A DNA stretch of 64,000 nt from Lunularia cruciata (Eukaryota > Streptophyta > Marchantiopsida > Lunulariales > Lunulariaceae). Shown here piece by piece: positions 12,746 through 64,000 of this stretch (position 1 is the first letter of the stretch; the number at the start of each line of letters is the position of its first letter). The stretch lies in the NCBI GenBank assembly GCA_948567375.1, contig OX419758.1, positions 38,207,473 to 38,271,472 on the forward strand, in the 5' to 3' direction. A model generated the notes under the pieces. It saw nothing but the letters and a program-made list of their open reading frames with translations. It was not told the DNA's origin and did not search any database. The position numbers and the translations under genes are program-made.

Positions 12746-14224
12746 AAGGAATATGATCAACTCTTGGGATGCCCATGTGAGACAAGCAACCACTTCCACA
12801 ATAGTGACACTTGGGATTACACCCGCTTCTTCTATACCTTTGTTGATCGTTCCAGGGATATTGATCGAGTCATGGGAGTGGTTAGCTTCTTAGGCGGGTT
12901 GCATTTTGGGGTTATTTGAAGCTAGTTTTCCATGTCCACATCTATTCCATAGGCTACCCCGCACACTCCATGATAAGGCTAGATAGGCTTTTTGCCTACC
13001 ATTGGATAGTTTGGCACGTGATCCCTTGGATGAGTTAGCATGGTTCCTATTCCTCCTACTCCCTCGATGGTGTCTTTGTTATTCTAGAGGGAGACGTGCG
13101 GGGCATAGAGAGGTGGCTGCTAAATTTTTTCTATTTTGAGTGGGGGATTGGGCAGCCCTTCAAGAGGAGTCTATCAAGGCTACATGATTTAGGAGATAGG
13201 CATTGCCACAGGATACCACAAATTCCACTTGATTACGACAATGTAGGACATTAGTTCAGGCGGGAGAGTTTAGTAAAGAAGCACGAGCACTACACCCTTT
13301 GTCTATAGTGAGTCCTACTGATGAGACCATCTCTTCCTTACGCTCAGTGCATCCTATAGTAATAGAGGGACTACCACTAGAGGTCTTAGATTATCAGCCT
13401 GAGCAACCTTTATGTCTTGATAGGTCGCTATTTGCACAAGCATTGTGCATTGCCCCTTGCCTTTCCTCAGGAGGCTTGTCAGGGATGGTTTATGAGCACC
13501 TAAGAGATTGCTTCCAGGCAGATGATCCTTCTAGTGGTTTTACCAAGTTGTTTTAGGTGGTTGTAGCAATAGCAAGAGGAGACATCCCTATGTCTGTTAG
13601 TCGGGTGTTAAGTGCTAGTCGACTTCTCACAATGGAGAAGGATACGAGAGGCATTAGACCAATTGCTATTGGAGAGATCTTTTTGCATTTGGTTAGTCGT
13701 ACCATTGTCCTTCAGCATTGTTCTCACTTTTGACAACACCTTAGTCCACATCAGTTTGGAGTAGCTACACTTGGAGGATGTGAGGCTATATCTTTGAGCA
13801 TTAGAGCACTCCTAGATATCCATCCGGAGTAGGTCGTCCTACAAGTGGATGTTGAGAATGCTTTTAATAACGTCTCACATGCATCCATCTTTAGAGAGCT
13901 TAGGGAAGCTGGTGGATCCTTGGCAAGTCTCATTCCTTTTGTGTGGTCTTTTTATGGGTCTCCTGCTTCCCTTTACTACCAGCATGGTGGTTCACAAGAG
14001 GGAGTCACTATCTTGGAGTCAGCTGTTGGTACATGTCAGGGAGATCCTTTGGGAGGGCCCTTATTTGCCATGGCTCACTTTAAAGCTCTCCTATCTACTA
14101 CTTTGGCCAAGCCAAGTTGTGTATTTCCCTCCTTGGCAGATGATACACACATTGTAGGCCCTGTAGATTAGATTGGGTAGACCTTTGACTACTTGACTAC
14201 CGAGCTACATCTAGTAGGCTTGAG

Positions 14225-14316
14225 GGATTCGCAGTAACGGCCCCAACCAGCGCCGGCTCTTGAGAACGACAAGGAACCCCCCACGCCAGCTCCCGGCCCC
14301 CCGCTGCTGCCGGCCG
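14225..14316 (+). other. GC-rich 92-bp insertion in the reverse transcriptase frame
   Basis: The related copy at 51.8 kb reads without a break from the residues matching GLR to those matching SKC. Here about 92 bp rich in GCC/CCG lie between them, flanked by GAG on both sides. By eye the G+C content is far above the surrounding roughly 45 percent. It adds an in-frame stop (TAA near 14236). I do not recognise its source. Confidence 0.6.
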
Positions 14317-15396
14317 GAGTCAAGGTGTCAAAGTGTAGGGCATGGTCCCCTTTAGGTATCTCTCCCCACCCTGAGCTTCTAGAGGGGTGTATCACATCCA
14401 CAGATGGACTTCCTATTTTTGGAGTGCCAGTAAGATGGGAGGATTTTGTCACATGCTTCTTAGACGCTGCCCTTGCAGAGATGTTCTCCATGTGGATGAC
14501 CTTCCATTACTAGGAGATCCGTAGGTGGCATTTGGTATACTCTCTTCTAGTATTGCTCGTTGACCATCCTACCTCATCCGTACCGTTCCTCTCTCATTGT
14601 CCTTCCTATCACGTGTGAGAGCATTTGATAGGAGGATTATGGGAGTCTTTGGTGATATTATTGGACCATGGACTTTTGAGTGTGTGACAGGGGATTTGGC
14701 ACGTAGATAGATGGCTCTGCCAATCAGATGTGGTGGAGTTGGCTTGCTTTCTATAGAGCAGATGGCACCTATAGCGTTTTTGGGTAGTTGGGCTCTCTTG
14801 GCTCCCCTACTTTCCTCTCATTTTGTGGTTGCTGATAGGCCGGTTTTGGAGACTTATGTGATAGAGGTGGAGGGAGGATCCTTTTCTCTCTAGGTGTTAT
14901 TGCGGCAGACAAGAGATAGTCTATCCCCATGAGCACAAGAGGATTTTCCACCGTTTGCTTCACTATCATCATATTGGACTAAAGGTTTACAGTCTTCCTT
15001 GATGGAGTGATAGTGTGAGCATATGCTACATTCTCTCTTAGTCGACTCGTCCATTCCTCAGGCTACTAGAGCACATCTATGCTCTTGCTCCGACAAGGGT
15101 GCAAGCTCTTGGATCCTAGTTTGACCGTGCATTAGGGCTTTTCGACTCGCACCAACTACTTTCTCTACAGCAATGAGGTTTTGCCTAGGTTTGGTCCACC
15201 CATCTGCATCTTCATTACTCACTTGTGAGTGTGGTTCTACACTAGATGCAACAACAGTCCACATGACACGGTGTCCTTTTGGAGGACAGAGGATAGCTAT
15301 CCATGATGCCATTAGAGACATAGTGTTTGCTATGGCACGAGAGAATGGATACTTGGCTTGGAGCGTTTGTATGCTTTGCAGACGACATGTGTCAGG

Positions 15397-25100: not shown

Positions 25101-27780
25101 TATTCTGGATTGACCTGTCATTCTCACTGCTGAAATCTGGGTGCAGTCTTTCCGGAAACCTGCCGCTCTGTGCACAACTTGAAATCGAAAATATCAAAAA
25201 ATATTGTGAAGACAGAAAAGCCATGTACCTGAGGAGTTATGAGGCGAGTTGTGGACGGCAAGTGGACCGTTGCGGTGAACAGTCTCAGCACGTCAATTTT
25301 GCGACAAATTGCGTGTGTGGATATCCGTTGACTTTTTCTATGAGGCTCAATGCCCCCCCTTTCCGACTTATTGATCAAGAAACTGTAGACCAACTTCGAG
25401 TTGCTATAGCAGACATGTTCACGACGCAGAGATTCCAAGGAGAAAATCCTGGTCAGTCACTACCAGTTATCCTGTCTTCTGCTCAGGTTTCGATTGTGAA
25501 GGCCAATTTTACCGCTGATGACCGCCTGGAATTTACCCTCGACATTTTTCCCCCAAGGGAGAAGTGGACGGAGGAGGAATTCGAGTTCATAAAAACCTTT
25601 TTCATCTTGAACCTTGTACATCTGCCTGCAAATCAGGGGCCTTACTCGTTTAACGGAACTTTATCTGCACCCTTTGGTACGTGTTGGTCTCTACTGGAAT
25701 CACTTTGTGCATGCATATTTCCTCTCGAATACATTTTGGGCCTTGCAATTTGGACTTGAAATCTCTCTGGCCCGTCCGTTTCTGTTTGTTCTTGTAGGTG
25801 TGTCTTTCTCTTTTTGTCATTTTGTGCCCATTTTTGTTTTGTGATTTCGTGTCCAGCTTCTTCAAAGTCCTATTCCTCATTTGTTTCATTTACCTTCACT
25901 TGACAGCCCTGAGCACGGAGAGCAGTTCGTTGGGCACGGGAGCAATAGCTGGAATTATTGGTGGTGCTGTCGTCGTTCTCCTCATTGTTGGTTTGATAGC
26001 TTTGTATGCCATCAGACAGAAGAGAAGGGCTGACCGAGCTGAGATCATCACAAGGCCATTCGGTACGTCTGTAGCTCACAACGGTGACAGAATGTAGTCT
26101 TGGGAAGGACATCGCTATGTTCGCTACCGTGTAGTAGACATCGCTACCATGTAGAACTGAGGGCTCAGTAGATATCAGAGTAACTGAGGGTCGATGGATG
26201 CACCGGAATTTGGCAGCCAACTCGGCTTTCTTACGATATTGGCTTCTCCGTGTTGTTTGTGCCCAGCTTCGTGGGGTACTGGAGCAGGTACGGACAATGG
26301 GGCCGCTCCTGTTCTAAAGGGCGCTCGCTGGTTCTCCGTGAGTGAGCTTAAGAAGGCAACCAACAACTTTAGCGAGAACAATGAAGTTGGCTCCGGTGGT
26401 TATGGGAAGGTATACATAAGCTGTTTGGTCGTGATTTTTCCTAGCTGCCACTAATGTATGGTATCTGGTATTAAACAACCAATACCATACGTTGATTGTA
26501 ACATGTTTCATTAAACGGACGGTTTTCACAGGTGTACAAAGGAGTGTTGCCTTCAGGGGATGTGGTGGCAATCAAAAGGGCTCAGGAGGGCTCTATGCAA
26601 GGAGCTACGGAGTTCAAGAACGAGATCGAGCTCCTCTCTCGTGTGCACCACAGGAACCTTGTGGGTCTCATTGGCTTCTGTTACGAACAAGGAGAGCAGA
26701 TGCTTGTCTATGAGTTCATGACTAACGGAACTCTCCGTGATCATTTGCTTGGTAAGTCCTGTGAGAAGGAGTCCTGCATTCGCTACTACTCTTGACCTCT
26801 GCATATATATATTTTGTCTTCAAGTAGACAGATCACAAAGTTGATATGACTGATGTAATCTTTTGCGTTTAACAGCTCGTTCAGGGCGTCCCCTCACATG
26901 GCAGAATAGACTTAACATCGCTCTTGGTTCGGCCAAGGGGCTTTCTTACCTTCACGAGCTGGCCAATCCTCCCATCATTCACAGGGACATCAAATCGACC
27001 AATATTCTATTAGATGAAAGAATGACAGCGAAGGTTGCAGATTTTGGTCTTTCGAAGTTAGCACCTGATGATGGAGCTGGCAAAGCCCATGTATCCACTC
27101 AAGTCAAGGGGACTTTGGTAAATCCTATGTGCCTGCAAAACCTCTGAGCTTCAAGTTTCGGCTACTTACTAAATTGCATCACTCGCTGACCTGTTCCCTT
27201 CATCTACATATCCTTTGACGAAAACATTATTCGTTAGGTTGAGACTTTTACATGTTGATGGAAACGTATGACTGAATAAAACTCTAATTTGGAAGACACC
27301 ACATGTGGACTGCAGGGTTATCTGGATCCAGAATATTACATGACCCAGCAGCTCTCGGAGAAAAGCGATGTGTACAGTTTTGGCGTGGTACTATTGGAGA
27401 TCTTGACGGCAAGAGCTCCAATCGAACGAGGCAAATACATTGTTCGAGAAATTAGAACTGCTCTCGACAAGGGTGGAATAGCAGCAGGCCTCCCCCCATT
27501 GTTAGACCATCACATGAGCGATTATCCCCCTTCAGAGCTGGAAGATTTTCTCACACTCGCACTGCAATGTGTTGAAGAGGTTGCAGCGGATCGACCTAAC
27601 ATGAGTCAAGTTGTACAACAACTGGAGAAGATTGGCGGCAATAGTTTCACCGGGTCTGAAACGGGCGGTCGATCGGACGCGAGGACAAAAGATGTCTACA
27701 ATGATACCGATTTCCTGGGTAGAGAAACCCAGTTTCAGTACAGTGGTGGTTTTACCCCTAACGCTATCGAACCTAAATAG
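21976..27780 (+). CDS. Leucine-rich repeat receptor-like kinase (LRR-VIII type), 19 exons
   Basis: Exons: 21976-22123, 22499-22622, 22776-22847, 23044-23118, 23264-23335, 23446-23613, 23723-23794, 23895-23969, 24061-24132, 24255-24338, 24468-24542, 24709-24783, 24895-25041, 25147-25676, 25907-26062, 26267-26409, 26532-26751, 26876-27117, 27316-27780. All introns are GT-AG, phases match throughout, and 1004 residues result. Order: signal peptide (hydrophobic core about 25-45), LRRNT_2 cap ([13 protein letters not shown]), LRRs (about 91-420) on 72-84 bp modules, a Cys-containing juxtamembrane domain (to about 596), one TM segment (about 607-631), Ser/Thr kinase. Kinase landmarks are [23 protein letters not shown] and GYLDPEYY, so it is an RD kinase expected to be active at the plasma membrane. 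In-frame ATGs at 21994 and 22024 are alternative starts; 22024 gives the most compact signal peptide. The architecture fits the Arabidopsis At5g49760-like subgroup. Ligand unknown. Confidence 0.93.
22148..22180. repeat. (GA)n microsatellite in intron 1 of the receptor kinase gene
   Basis: A run of 16 GA units lies about 25 bp after the intron 1 donor at 22124. GA runs can bind plant GAGA-binding (BBR/BPC) factors; an effect here is inference. Confidence 0.9.
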
Positions 27781-36065: not shown

Positions 36066-36224
36066 GGGGATGGGGAATCGCCGGCTCTGAACTGTATCTC
36101 CACGGACAGTCTGTAAAACTTAATCATGGGTGACAAATCAAACTCTCAACATTTATAAGCCATGACTTAAAGATTGAAAATATTCTGTTCCATCAATCAG
36201 TTTAAAGTGATAGTGTGCAATGTT

Positions 36225-36760
36225 CTTGGTCCTTGTCCTTGTTCTTGTCCTTAAGGTTGTTGTTACCTAAAGTTATAGGTACTAGATGCAGAAGTTTACA
36301 AACATCATCTTTACGGTTGCGTAGTGAAGTTTCTTGGCTGCAGTTCACATAGATGTATGAGTTATATAAGACAAGGATGCATAGTGGTACACTTGTAAGA
36401 AGTAGGCGAAGAATGGAAGTGAAGTTTCTTGGCTACAGTTCACATATCTTGGTCCTTGTCCTTGTTCTTGTCCTTAAGGTTGTTGTTACCTAAAGTTATA
36501 GGTACTAGATGCAGAAGTTTACAAACATCATCTTTACGGTTGCGTAGTGAAGTTTCTTGGCTGCAGTTCACATAGATGTATGAGTTATATAAGACAAGGA
36601 TGCATAGTGGTACACTTGTAAGAAGTAGGCGAAGAATGGAAGTGAAGTTTCTTGGCTACAGTTCACATAGATGTATGAGTTATATAAGACAAGGATGCAT
36701 AGTGGTACACTTGTAAGAAGTAGGCGAAGAATGGAAGCGTCTATATATACAAAGAGGCAA
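36225..36760. repeat. Nested tandem repeat: 223-bp unit with an internal 95-bp unit
   Basis: CTTGGTCCTTGTCCTTG begins at 36225 and again at 36448, period 223. Inside each unit a segment beginning GAAGTTTCTTGGCT repeats with period 95 (36326/36421 and 36549/36644). The two 223-bp units are almost identical, so the outer duplication is recent. Confidence 0.85.
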
Positions 36761-44594: not shown

Positions 44595-45095
44595 TCTAAA
44601 AGACCAAGGAAAGAAATAGGAGAATGGGGATCAAATTGAAGATCATATTGGGATTCTTGAATGAAGGAAACTCCAAATGCCTAGTATGAGCTGGCTTTGG
44701 TATTTATAAGGAAGCATACAAGGCTCTCGAGATTTTGAAGAAGCCTCCTTACAGCCGCCTTCTTAGAGTACAAGCCAAGCTAATTAGGAAGCTTCTCAAG
44801 AAGCTTTCTTCTAGAAGCTACCTACTTGGCATACAAGCTAAGTTAGTTGGGAAGCTTCCTAAGAAGCTTCCTTCTAAAAGCCATCTACTTGGTATGGAAG
44901 CTAAGCTAGTTGAGAACCTTCCCAAGAGCTTTCCTCCTAGAAGTCACTACTTGGCATGCACATTATTCAATACTTGGAAAGTTCCAAGTAGCTTTCTAGA
45001 TGCTTCTAGAATATTTTTATAATTCTTGGTTGATTTGGTCTATTTTTTACTTTTTTAGTCTCAACTAACTCATCCATAAACTCCATATTGTTACA
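44595..45095 (-). repeat. 3' LTR of the Ty3/gypsy element (left copy)
   Basis: On the minus strand the LTR starts TGTAACAATATGGAG, directly after a purine-rich tract (ATGGGGAAATA) at about 45096-45106. It aligns over its whole length with 49760-50283. Inside is a threefold tandem module (period about 66 bp) built on AAGCTTCCTAAGAAGCTTCC. Confidence 0.8.
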
Positions 45096-49759: not shown

Positions 49760-50283
49760 TGTAAAAGATCAAGAAGAGAAATTAAAGAAATAGAAGATCA
49801 AAGTGAAAGATCATATTAGGAATCTTGAATGAGAGACACTCCAAACCTAGGCTTTGGTATTTATAGGGAGCATAAAACGCTCTTGAAAAGTTTCTCAAGA
49901 AGCCTCCTAGTAGCTGCCTTCTTAGAGTGCAAGCTAAGCTTATCGTAAAGCTTCTCAAGAAGCTTCCTTCTAAAAGTTACCTAATTGGTGTACAAGCTAA
50001 GTTAGTTAGGAAGCTTCCTTCTAAAAACCACCTACTTTGTGTACAAGCTAAGCTAGTTCAAAAGCTTCCCAAGAACCACCTACTTGGATGCAAGTTAAGC
50101 TCACTGAGAAGCTTCCTAAGAAACTTCCTCCTAGAAATCTTGGCTTATGCATTACCCAATACTTGGAAGGTGCCAAGTAGCTTCTTAGATATTTCTAGAA
50201 TATTTTTATAATTCTTGGTTAATTTGGCCTATTGCTACATTTTTAGTCTTGACTAACTCATTTGTGAACTCCATATTGTTATA
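49760..50283 (-). repeat. 5' LTR of the Ty3/gypsy element (right copy)
   Basis: Aligns with 44595-45095 from AAAGATCAAG to the CTCCATATTGTTA end on the plus strand. Many substitutions and small indels separate the two, so the insertion is old. Confidence 0.8.
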
Positions 50284-51510
50284 GGAATTGTATAAAGAGC
50301 TTCAATACCAATGTAATATTTTTTGCTTACATAATGAAAGATTAAGCTCAAAAACCTACACAATCCTTAGTGCATAATTGATTGCATCTTTGCTTAAGTA
50401 AGTGATGAAGAGTTTGGGAGTAGGAACACAAGTGCTTGAGTGTTGGGAAATTTTTTTACTTGCCTAAGGTGTTGGATCCCTAGGGTTCCAAATAAGCAAT
50501 GCAATTGTTGAAGGGTGAAGAGTAATCAAAAGCATTAACAGTACCACAAAATCAAAAGGCATGATAATAGATCAATTCAAAGACTACTTTGGGATTGTGA
50601 TTTTTGGGAAGTATATTGTACCCAATATTCAAAGTTGTGGGTATCAACTGAAAAGCCCTCTTGGGTGAAAAGATATTTGGGGTGGAACCAACCTTTAGAG
50701 AGGAGTTGATCTTTGAGGAGAAGTGACCTTTATAGGAAAGTGAGCCATCACCTGTAGCAATACTTTGGAATATATTTGTAGTGATAGTGGTTTTAGTTTT
50801 CCCTTTTCCATATTGTGTCATAAGGGTGACACTACACACTTTTGGGAGTAGTTTTTCCCAAGAAGTTAAATAAGAAATAATAAAGAATTACCATTTGTGA
50901 GATTTCTTTTCAATTGTAGTTATTTCTTGCACACATCCTCAAGGGAATAACTTGTTACTTGCATTTTACCACATTTTGGTCAATATTGAGTCACTACAAC
51001 TATTGCACCATAGAGTTAGGAATCTATCTCCAACAATGCTTTTATTATACTCTTTATTTTATCCAAAGTCTTCCATGCACTTGCTAATTTGAGAGTCATG
51101 GAGTAAAAGCATTTTGATTTCTCATTTTGTTCCTTGATTTAGAGATTATCTTACTTAGAGCCTTATTTTTTCCGTGATGGAAATTGTTTACATTTTCAAG
51201 GCCTAATTCATCCATTTAGGCCTCACATATTAGCTTTGAAGGTTTTTATGTTGTTTTCTACTCCTAACCTATTAACATATTTACTCTTTTGGTGATACCT
51301 CTATCTGATATACTTATATAACATCCTTCTAAATGTTACTAAGCTAAATTTCACCTCTAGATAATATTTCTAGCTATTAGTATTACACAAGAGAGCACAA
51401 ATACCTAAAAACAATATAGGTACCATCATCTTTAGATGATAGGCCTATCAATCCATATAAGATTGGTATAGGTGTTTGTCTATGTGCCAAATCCCTTATT
51501 ACAAACTAAA
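50284..51510. other. Spacer with one arm of a dispersed inverted repeat
   Basis: No gene. The part 51185-51400 is, on the minus strand, related to 57265-57630 (shared words GGATGAATTAGGCCT, TATCACCAAAAG, AAGGATGTTA). The two lie in opposite orientation about 6 kb apart, bracketing the transposon block between them. Confidence 0.5.
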
Positions 51511-52570
51511 AAACTCCTTGGTCCAATGATATATCACCAAAAGCTATCATGATCTTTTTATCAAAAGCTCTCAAATATGAAAAGGTCAAAGAAAGAAGGA
51601 TTGCACAAAGCAAGTAAGTTAGTTGATTTGTAATACTAGAGAAGAGTATACCAAATTCTACCTATGGATCTCCTAATAGAAGAAGGAAATCCACATGAAT
51701 AATTTCTTTTACAAGAGAAACATCTAAGAAATATGTGACAAAATCCTTGGATCCTACTAGTACTCCAAGAATATGTAGGCCATCTATATATATGATATAG
51801 AAATTGGAATTGAGGAGGGATACCTAAAGGAAACTATGCTTTACAATTTGACACATTGACTCTCAAGCATACAAAAAGAAGCTTGATAGTCAAGTGGTCA
51901 AAGGATGGCCTAATCTGATCAACTAGGTCCATGATGTGTGTATTGTCTGCCAAGGAGTGAAATATGCAACCTAGAATGGCCATATTAGTATATAAGAGAC
52001 CTCTAAAGTAATTCATAGCAAAAAAATCCTCTTAAGGATCTCCTTGTTGTGAACCAACAACCAAGTCCAAGATGGTGACTCCTTGTGAAAATTATGTTGG
52101 TAATAGTGGGAAGAAGGAGAACCATAGAAGGACCTCATGAAAGGGATGTCTAAAGATCCATTGGACTCTGTAAGCTCCTTAAAGATAGATGCACATGAGA
52201 AGCTAAAAAATTATTCTCAACATTAATTTATAGAACAACCCATTCCAAATGGATTTCTAAGAGTGCTCTAATGCCTAAAGAGATGGCCTCAAAACCTCTA
52301 AGAGTAGCAACTTCAAATATATATATATGGATGTAGGTGCTATTAGAAGTGAGAATGATGCTAAATTACAATGGTAAAACTAAGAAGACCCAAGAAGACC
52401 TCATAATAGTAGTTGTTCTAATGCTCCTTGTGTCCTTCTTTATCACAAGAAGTTTGCTAGCACTTAGCACTTGACTAATTGACCTAGGAATCTCTCTATC
52501 TCCCATAGAGGCAATGGCATGGAAAGAAAGGACAATATGTCCACATCCATTCCTTCTCTAAGTGATGTAT
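51510..52570 (-). mobile_element. RLE-type non-LTR retrotransposon, copy 2 (fragment)
   Basis: Minus-strand frames match copy 1 piece by piece: SQVLSASKLLVIKKDTR, AISLGIRALLEIHLEWVVL, a decayed active-site box SLADNTHI (52.0-51.9 kb), LRVNVSNCKA, and then the thumb region to about 51.5 kb. The zinc finger and endonuclease are missing. Copy 2 keeps Trp where copy 1 has a stop (IHLEW versus IHPE-stop) and lacks the 92-bp GC-rich block, so the two complement each other for reconstructing history. Confidence 0.75.
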
Positions 52571-60076: not shown

Positions 60077-60724
60077 TCAAGAAATTGCTTGTTTCACAAC
60101 GCTAAGGTTTGCCGTCTCTCCTTCTACAAAAGCGGAACAATGTTGGCCTGCTAGTAAAGATCCAACAATTGCTAAGAGTCCGAGAAAACCAACCCAGAAT
60201 GCTTGCAAAGGTATAGCCCCGAATCGCACTTCTTCCAGCATGATATTGTAGATGACAAACTCTTGTTCCTTGACATTGGATTCCCCCGCCACGACGCCCG
60301 CAGGTGCCACAGTAACCAGAACCAGGGCCCGAATATTTTGCTCGGTTGCAGTATTTTCGAAGATGATTTTCTCAGTGTTGAGTAGCTTTCTTCTTCTTCT
60401 TGAGTGCCCGCTTTGATTGTCCTCGTCCGCCTCCTTCAATAGAGACAGAGAAAAGCTCGAAGGTATGGTAGCCGGGTAAGATATCTTCACTTCATATGAA
60501 ACGGACTCTTTCATATCCAACAGCTCATATAGACACTTTCCGCCTCCTCCTCTTAGAGGCAGCTTGTCTTCTTTCCGTTCCTGTCCCACTCTGAGCACGC
60601 GGGCTTCCACATTTCTCGCGAAATTATCTGCTACAGCAGAATCCAACACAAGCCCTAATGCCCCAACGAAGAGGATGCCAATTCGGGGCCAACTTGCACT
60701 AGGAGGACAATAATTCATCCACAT
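60077..60724 (-). CDS. Small type I membrane protein, uncharacterised
   Basis: An intact 215-codon frame with no intron needed. Residues 14-32 form a hydrophobic signal peptide (GILFVGALGLVLDSAVA). The lumenal or extracellular part is about 140 residues, includes KCLYELLDMKESVSYEVKIS, and has a basic SRRRRK loop near the middle. It is followed by VTVAPAGVV and KEQEFVIYNI, then one membrane segment (about 175-196) and a 19-residue tail. The composition is clearly that of a conserved secretory-pathway protein; I believe plants carry an uncharacterised family of this layout, but I cannot name it. The start codon lies about 185 bp from the edge of the palindrome. Confidence 0.75.
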   Translation of the reverse strand: MWMNYCPPSASWPRIGILFVGALGLVLDSAVADNFARNVEARVLRVGQERKEDKLPLRGGGGKCLYELLDMKESVSYEVKISYPATIPSSFSLSLLKEADEDNQSGHSRRRRKLLNTEKIIFENTATEQNIRALVLVTVAPAGVVAGESNVKEQEFVIYNIMLEEVRFGAIPLQAFWVGFLGLLAIVGSLLAGQHCSAFVEGETANLSVVKQAIS

Positions 60725-61013
60725 TCTGTCTCAATATCAAAGGTTTGCGGCTCCCCTGATCTAAACTCGCTTTGACGACTATATAGTTACCTATTCTGTC
60801 AATGTCCGTACTTTAACACAAGCACACGGAACACTTGGGAATGCTTGGGGCCAAATTCGGTGGCAAATAAATTCGGGGCAAAATCCAGAACTGGTGCATG
60901 TACGAAACTAAAACTCAGCTCCTTGAGGCGGACAGTGCATTTTTACCGTTTCCTGTAATTTATTTGCGAGATGAGGTCGTTATGTGAATGTACATCACTG
61001 GCATTCTTATTAC

Positions 61014-61542
61014 CAGCCGATCTAGCGGAAGAGAAGGCAGCACCAAAAGTTCGTGAAGCGGGCTGCAAAACAGATGGCAGGGGGGCTGCAGGTTGCCTCC
61101 GAGATGATCGGTCCTAAATCTCTGATCCTATGCCACAGAAAAATACCACCAGAAGTCAATGCTTACTACTGCTTGCGACGATCCATTCCGGGTAAGCTTC
61201 ATACCTGAGTTTTATATTTCCATTCTCTTTTTAGAGAAGACTTCCGTCTTAGCTTGACAAATCTTTCACCAGAATCAAGCAACCATAGTAATTTCAGGAA
61301 GTTTCAGCAGCTGATCTCGAGCTGAGAACTTGCAAATCCCAATGAACATAGCTCTGTAGACTCCACATTTTTACGAAACAATCACAGGAACTAAAAACAT
61401 TTTTCGTTTGACAATCCAAATTTCCAATCTCATTTCTATCAAAATTCGTACCGGACAAAAGCCCTGACTGCAGAGAAGGGCACGAGACTGCGGATGATCG
61501 CCGTGAAGTCCGCTGCAAATGGCGCAACGCGATCGCTGCCAT
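61014..61542 (-). pseudogene. Left copy of the presequence gene, stop in exon 2
   Basis: Exon 1 (61452-61542, minus) encodes an N-terminus nearly identical to the right copy (MAAIALRHLQRTSRRSSAVS). The donor is GTACGA at the same phase. Exon 2 (61014-61127) has the same length as its partner, but its fifth codon is TAG (61114-61116) where the right copy has TCG. Beyond 60909 the similarity ends, so the rest of the gene is absent, or was never duplicated. Both changes point to a non-functional copy. Confidence 0.65.
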
Positions 61543-62253
61543 GTTTACTTCCAGGACCGTGCGCAAACAACACGGAATTGGACCTCGATCGATCAGTCGA
61601 TGGACCACAACCAAGCTGACGAAGAGGATTTCCAGAAACGAAACCCCACCCTTCTTGTGGTCTGTTCTCTTCAAAGGGAAAGTAAAACCTTGAAGCTCTG
61701 TTCGGGTTTCGCTCTGAACCTAATCCGTGTCCCAACTATACCACAGTACAGTTTACTTCCAAGTCCAGCTCCGCCAAAGTATTTAGTCATGACCAACTTA
61801 GAAACTCTGCTGCCGTTATTCAGCATGTGCTAATTATTTTAATTATCAATAGATATTTTTGTGCATGATATTTTCTTCAACGCTCAAGCCCAGCACGTCA
61901 AATCCAACGTGTTATGTAACAATCTAGTCTGGAGTACATGGCAAATTATAGTCGATCTCTTCGATAGTTTCGATTATGAAATTCAGTGGCGTTCGTTAAT
62001 GAGTTCTAACTTGGGTTAAGTTGAAGTCGGTTTAAATTTTGGGCAACAATAGCGTGTAAAGAATGTCCTCTCTTCCACGTAGAGAAAATTGGATTTCCTC
62101 TGCAGGATAAGTTGGATCTCATAACAGTAGTATTCTGTTGCGTAGAGAAAGGGATTTGTGAGAAAAAACCAAGAAGCAGATCAGCTGCATCTCACCCGAA
62201 CAGCTGATCTCAATCGAACAATGTAGTGAGAATTACTAAAGGAAGAGCCCGTC

Positions 62254-62900
62254 CTTTGATGGCACTTGCAGCATCCACTCATCTTCATAGATTCAACAAT
62301 ATCTCAATAATGACCTATTGCCGGACGGGCGAGCTCTTCCTTTAGTAATTCCCACTACATTGTTCGTTTGAGATACAACTGATCTGCTTCTTGGTTTCTT
62401 CACACAAATGCTTTTCTCTACGTAGCAGACTACTACTATGAGATCCAACTTACAATCCAGAGGATAGCCAATCTTCTCTGCGTGGAAGAGAATACATACT
62501 TTACACTTCTTTACATGCTATTGTTGCCCAAAACTTAACCCGACTTCAACTTAACGGTCGCCTTCTTTTTTACTTCAACTTAACCTTTGATGGCACTTGC
62601 AGCATCCACTCATCCTAATAGATTCAACAATATCTCAATGACCGACCTGTTGAAAACCTACTCAAAGGACGGGCTCTTCCTTTAGTAATTCACACTCCAT
62701 TGTTCGTTTGAGATGCAGTTGATCTGTCTCTTGGTTTCTTCACACAAATTCCTGTCTGTACGCAACAGAATACCTCTGCTATGAGATCCAACTTACCATC
62801 CAGAGGAAATCCAGTCTTCTCTACGTGGAAGAGAAGACATTCTTTACACGCTATTGTTGCCCAAAACTTAACCCGACTTCAACTTAACCCAAGTTAAAAC
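62254..62900. repeat. Centre of the palindrome with nested direct and inverted repeats
   Basis: A segment with GATGGCACTTGCAGCATCCA occurs at 62259 and again at 62588, in direct orientation. The arm tip (from CTCTTCCTTTAGTAATTC to CCCGACTTCAACTTAAC) is present twice, at about 62330-62556 and 62667-62886. A small inner hairpin pairs 62230-62256 (ACTAAAGGAAGAGCCCGTCC) with 62323-62350. Confidence 0.75.
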
Positions 62901-63366
62901 TCATTAACGAATGCCACTGAATTTCATTATCGAAACTATTGAAGAGATCGACTTTAATTTGCCATGTACTCCAGACTAGATTGTTACATAACATGTTGGA
63001 TTTGACATGCTGGGCTTGAGCGTTGAAGAAAATATCATGCACAAAAATATCTATTGATAATTAAAATAATTAGCACATGCTGAATAACGGCAGCAGAGTT
63101 TCTAAGTTGGTCATGACTATATATATACTTTGGCGGAGCTGGACTTGGAAGTAAACTGTACTGTAGTATAGTTGGGACACTGATTAGGGTTCACAGCGAA
63201 ATCCGAACAGAGCTTCAAGGCTTTACTTTCCCTTTGCAGAGAACAGACCACGGGAAGGGTTGGGGTTTCGTTTCTGGAAATCCTCTTCGTCAGCTTGGTT
63301 GTGGTCCATCGACTGATCGATCGAGGTCCAATTCCGTGTTGTTTGCGCACGGTCCTGGAAGTAAAC

Positions 63367-64000
63367 ATGGCAGCGATCGCGTTGCGCTATTTGCAGCGGA
63401 CGTTACGGCGATCATCCGCAGTCTCGTGCCCTTCGCTGCAGTCAGGGCTTTTGTCCGGTACGAATTTTGATAGAAATGAGATTTGGAAATTTGGATTGTC
63501 AAACGAAAACTGTTTTTAGTTCCTGTGATTGTTTCGTAAAAATGTGGAGTCTACAGAGCTATGTTCATTGGGATTTGCAAGTTCTCAGCTCGAGATCAGC
63601 TGATGAAACTTCCTGAAATTACTATGGTTGCTTGATTCTGGTGAAAGATTTGTCAAGCTAAGACGGAAGTCTTCTCTAAAAAGAGAATGGAAATATAAAA
63701 CTCAGGTATGAAGCTTACCCGGAATGGATCGTCGCAAGCAGTAGTAGGCATTGACTTCTGGTGGTATTTTTCTGTGGCGTAGGATCAGAGATTTCGGAGC
63801 GAGCATCTCGGAGGCAACCTGCAGCCCCCCTGCCATCTGTTTTGCAGCCCGCTTCACGAACTTTTGGTGCTGCCTTCTCTTCCGCTAGATCGGCTGGTAA
63901 TAAGAATGCCAGTGATGTACATTCATATAACGACCTCATCTCGCAAATAAATTACAGGAAACGGTAAAAATGCACTGTCCGCCTCATGGAGCTGATGTTT
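63367..64000 (+). CDS. 5' part of a gene with a mitochondrial-type presequence (runs off window)
   Basis: Exon 1 63367-63457 encodes MAAIALRYLQRTLRRSSAVS and on to a phase-1 GT donor. Exon 2 63783-63896 continues in phase with SEISERASRRQP, then QPASRTFGAAFSSARSAG, followed by a GTAATA donor. The result is Arg, Ser and Ala rich with no acidic residue in the first 30, and it ends in RTFGAAFSSA, the composition of a plant mitochondrial presequence. The mature protein lies beyond the window, so I cannot name it. The gene points away from its inverted copy at 61.0-61.5 kb, and both would share the central 1.8 kb as a promoter. Confidence 0.55.

Follow-up and report, generated by a model that had tools for sequence, protein, structure and literature searches.

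What kind of event places two copies of the 5′ end of one gene head-to-head, and what has become of each copy since? The question arises from a palindrome at the right-hand end of the 64,000-nucleotide stretch of Lunularia cruciata DNA that we analysed (hereafter the window). We conclude that the palindrome is real in the sequence and is probably an ordinary local inverted duplication, one half of which looks like a decaying partial copy.

The preliminary description of this DNA reported two head-to-head inverted arms of about 1.3 kb sharing a centre, and alignment bears this out.

60911 to 62259, minus strand (the strand of the partial gene copy): left arm, delimited by repeat detection and by aligning it locally with the reverse-complemented right arm; its outer limit is seen only within the window.
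62662 to 64000, plus strand: right arm, delimited by repeat detection and local alignment; truncated by the end of the window.

The left arm and the reverse complement of the right arm are 94.3% identical over 1,357 columns (BLAST, E = 0.0), a similarity far above chance. Of the columns of the local alignment, 1,282 are identical and 26 contain gaps; the 49 substitutions in 1,331 aligned bases comprise 27 transitions and 22 transversions. The preliminary description also places the end of the left copy in intron 2, which is not established: the homology continues to base 64000, the final base of the window, so that its outer end lies beyond view.

Each arm was also said to hold the same two exons of a gene that encodes a presequence. 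The exons stand as a prediction made from the sequence alone, and their coordinates, with that of an upstream motif, are as follows.

63118 to 63127, plus strand: TATATATATA run, a putative TATA box, preceding the right copy; the alignment shows the left arm to be 4 bases short at this point and without the run.
63367 to 63457, plus strand: predicted exon 1 of the right copy, with start ATG, splice donor and an ATG-free leader of 239 nt.
63783 to 63896, plus strand: predicted exon 2 of the right copy, frame open.
61452 to 61542, minus strand: predicted exon 1 of the left copy, with ATG and GT donor.
61014 to 61127, minus strand: predicted exon 2 of the left copy, with AG acceptor, GT donor and a TAG codon (TCG>TAG relative to the right copy).

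The first donor, first acceptor and second donor are preserved in both copies, and the right and left ATG alike lie in the context AACATGGC. In the right copy the frame is open across 68 codons. The 239 nt that precede its ATG (63128-63366) contain no other ATG, a condition matched in 35 of 5000 mononucleotide shuffles, which supports this ATG as a real start codon. The TATATATATA run may be a TATA box, and the TAGGGTT at 63185 in the right arm may be an element resembling the telo box of plant promoters. The presequence fares less well than the exons: the 68-residue predicted peptide, with nine arginines and lysines to two acidic residues and a maximum hydrophobic moment of 0.55, is compatible with a mitochondrial presequence, but that identity is not established, as two protein searches returned no relative at E ≤ 10 (200 and 409 candidates, with lengths of about 163-520 and 351-1118 aa, shorter and longer proteins falling outside this coverage).

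The left copy has fared differently. The TAG codon noticed earlier in its second exon is there, at codon 35, and it is one of five non-synonymous changes among the seven exon differences between the copies. By raw counts the exons differ at 7 of 205 positions and the introns at 6 of 427 (4/324 in intron 1 and 2/103 in intron 2 as far as the window edge); the predicted exons are thus no less diverged than the introns, as expected of an unconstrained copy. Upstream, the arm alignment shows the left arm to be without the putative TATA run, and in the 470 bases 5′ of the left ATG TAGGGTT is replaced by TTAGGTT. A broken frame and the lack of any sign of constraint mark the left copy as a pseudogene, insofar as the predicted gene model is correct, and it is probably a partial copy that is decaying and functionless.

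The centre of the palindrome is more intricate than the preliminary description had it: the inner unit is present a third time, and there is a step in divergence, neither of which appeared there.

62015 to 62259, minus strand: inner unit of the left arm, 9.25% diverged from its right counterpart (21/227).
62327 to 62555, plus strand: the inner unit in its third (middle) copy, which forms a tandem with the inner end of the right arm.
62556 to 62583, no strand assigned: 28-nt filler at the tandem junction, repeating ACTTCAACTTAA of the adjacent unit.

The inner unit of the right arm starts at 62667, and the two members of the tandem pair, 62253-62555 and 62584-62888, are 82.9% identical. Judged by the repeat that it contains, the filler between them looks templated. 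Divergence between the arms is 2.2% over the outer 1,038 bases (23/1038) and 8.9% over the innermost 293 (26/293). The best change-point lies at 61949 (approximate support 61876-62087), and a step this strong occurred in 0 of 500 permutations; placing the step at the repeat-unit boundary, 62015, gives a somewhat worse fit (deviance about 4.7, beyond the approximate 95% limit of 3.84). Among the three inner units we counted 11 private differences in the left, 14 in the middle and 9 in the right (columns 86-354, numbered from 0), leaving out three-way differing sites as well as spacer and post-junction columns, where homology does not extend to all three; no pair of copies groups clearly. The outer arms may be younger than the centre. 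The step and the third unit would fit either seeding of the duplication at an older core of inverted repeats or gene conversion from arm to arm, and conversion would also be expected to hold the divergence of the outer arms low. A search with the core (61900-62700) of a plasmid collection, where plant nuclear DNA is hardly expected, gave no match.

We think it probable, on balance, that a single gene had its promoter and exons 1 and 2 copied in a local inverted duplication, that the right copy belongs to a working gene, that the left copy is decaying, and that an older repeat probably seeded the event. Direct observation covers the arms, the stop codon, the loss of the motifs, the divergence step and the third unit; the gene model, the parental copy, the mechanism and the sequence in which events took place are inferred. 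In this reconstruction the promoter and exons 1 and 2 would have been duplicated head-to-head adjoining the original, probably from an older inverted repeat at the centre and by fold-back template switching during replication. The third inner unit may have arisen by tandem duplication at the same time or earlier, and the right copy would now be the 5′ end of a gene that runs on beyond base 64000. In favor of a local duplication, the right copy retains an open frame and both upstream motifs. Against it stands the predicted peptide, for which the searches made detected no relative, and the standing of the right copy as intact parent is presumptive, its later exons lying outside the window. An interrupted, asymmetric centre with shorter inverted repeats is a likeness to palindromes of the ODIRA and template-switch type, as portions of two reports describe them (PMC10766186, PMC4689423). 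There are also differences: the yeast ODIRA model employs short repeats, whereas those at the present centre measure about 245 bp, and ODIRA yields triplications, whereas the two arms visible here, within the window, make a duplication.

The duplication might be longer than the window reveals, and this is the alternative that survives best, although we consider it unlikely. On this account the right arm would run past 64000 to include a copy of the gene that flanks the left arm, and the predicted exons would be the 5′ exons of that gene.

60077 to 60724, minus strand (the direction of the left copy): uninterrupted 215-aa open reading frame in the left flank, with liverwort relatives by protein search.

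Nineteen proteins among 2053 candidates matched this frame at E ≤ 0.001. A protein of Riccia fluitans had the lowest E-value (54% identity over 93%); the other named liverworts were Marchantia polymorpha and M. paleacea, each with 52% over 97%, and, with 50% over 81%, Calypogeia fissa. These matches point by themselves to a liverwort other than those four. The names of two relatives begin 'Translocon-associated protein' and 'ER membrane', and the frame matched nothing in Pfam at E ≤ 0.001 and nothing in PDB at E ≤ 1. A longer duplication would agree with the unbroken run of homology up to the window edge and with the position of this frame, which follows the left copy immediately downstream, is read in the same direction and is separated from it by 186 bp. 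However, the frame aligns over nearly its full length with relatives of 219, 220, 225 and 245 aa in four liverworts, so upstream coding exons are not needed, and the reading frame of the left copy is halted by TAG. The outermost 14 alignment columns hold one gap and one substitution, as might be seen near an end of homology, and argue weakly in the same direction.

A slightly less likely alternative, to which we would give rather little credence, is that the palindrome is a hairpin-RNA locus, in which transcription entering from outside would read through both arms, and the resulting long hairpin would be diced into small RNAs directed against the intact gene. Its structure is suitable, being an inverted repeat capable of the long duplex that characterizes a hairpin siRNA locus: the predicted fold of 60725-64000 has a minimum free energy of -2535.6 kcal/mol (a value for the native sequence only), 1275 of its 1437 predicted pairs lie near the palindromic register, and perfect duplex runs extend to at most 191 bp. 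Rightward transcription could conceivably leak from 60725-60910, between the neighboring open reading frame and the left arm. The predicted promoters, however, lie between the exons of the two copies and are directed outward, so that both predicted transcripts are sense; they would not pair with each other, and double-stranded RNA would require a promoter outside. We therefore reject a hairpin that arises by default from the gene's own promoters. No Rfam family matched across the window at the gathering score, a result that says little about siRNA loci or a new MIRNA family, and no tRNA was found in the window at the default threshold. A small-RNA function of the palindrome is possible but unsupported.

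There are precedents for such a locus in PAI1-PAI4 of Arabidopsis, the soybean I locus, the inverted-duplication model of MIRNA origin and inverted T-DNAs. In the Ws strain of Arabidopsis, PAI1-PAI4, like the present locus, consists of adjoining inverted copies of one endogenous plant gene; its double-stranded RNA is reported to result from transcription that starts at a heterologous promoter upstream and passes through the tail-to-tail repeat (PMC3203196). The arrangement differs here, where the copies are head-to-head and the predicted promoters are inside rather than outside. MIRNA genes have been proposed to arise from inverted duplications in convergent or divergent orientation (PMC3237417), and the present locus resembles that model in having two adjoining segments of one gene, in divergent orientation. 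Inversion and duplication of CHS genes at the soybean I locus, for which siRNAs are reported (PMC12750495), likewise constitutes an inverted gene duplication. Unlike these two, the present locus is known from its sequence only, and its arms, at about 1.35 kb, are unlike those of the MIRNA model in including promoter and introns. For inverted T-DNAs, passages in two reports link convergent read-through to silencing (PMC6196474) and the inverted arrangement to often low expression (PMC4564723).

An improbable further reading is that the left arm serves as a transplanted promoter for the conserved neighboring frame, which lies 186 bp downstream in the same direction and has relatives with ER-protein names. 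The left arm retains both splice donors. If promoter capture were true, transcripts that start there could extend, or be spliced, into the neighboring frame, and the TAG codon would terminate the potential presequence ahead of any fusion to an ER protein.

Still less probable, in our judgment, is a transposable element with long terminal inverted repeats and a captured gene fragment. Gene-capturing elements do have long inverted arms with gene sequence inside, and the present arms, which enclose gene sequence, resemble them, but a search of positions 1-60850 of the window with 60851-64000 found no further copy of the arms at E ≤ 0.1, and no transposase family was detected in the six open reading frames scanned, all six of which lie outside the arms. 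False palindromes are known to arise from fold-back chimeras, but an artefact of assembly (a fold-back read built into the contig, for example) should yield near-identical arms, and we reject it as scarcely credible in view of the 49 substitutions and 26 gap columns, their uneven spread, and the asymmetric centre with its tandem unit.

Inverted gene duplications are a proposed raw material for new small-RNA genes in plants and for natural silencing alleles. A partly decayed palindrome in a liverwort, with a centre that may have formed in two stages, could exemplify how palindromes form and whether such structures turn into small-RNA loci.

Other repeats and one further gene were noticed elsewhere in the window. 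The segments at 13579-14800 and 51388-52496 form a diverged inverted pair (71-72%), and an open reading frame in the first has a weak match to RVT_1, the reverse-transcriptase family (20.5 bits, under the curated cut-off), so the two are probably old retroelement copies. A probable receptor-like kinase gene lies in pieces at 25223-27780, where there are kinase-domain matches and a match to ALE2_N under the curated cut-off. A direct pair, 44597-45093 and 49762-50281 (74%), overlaps degenerate tandem repeats of 47-63 bp in open frames. Finally, 36224-36737 holds a perfect tandem duplication of 223 bp (100%), overlapping a 95-bp tandem (about 98-99%), and looks recent.
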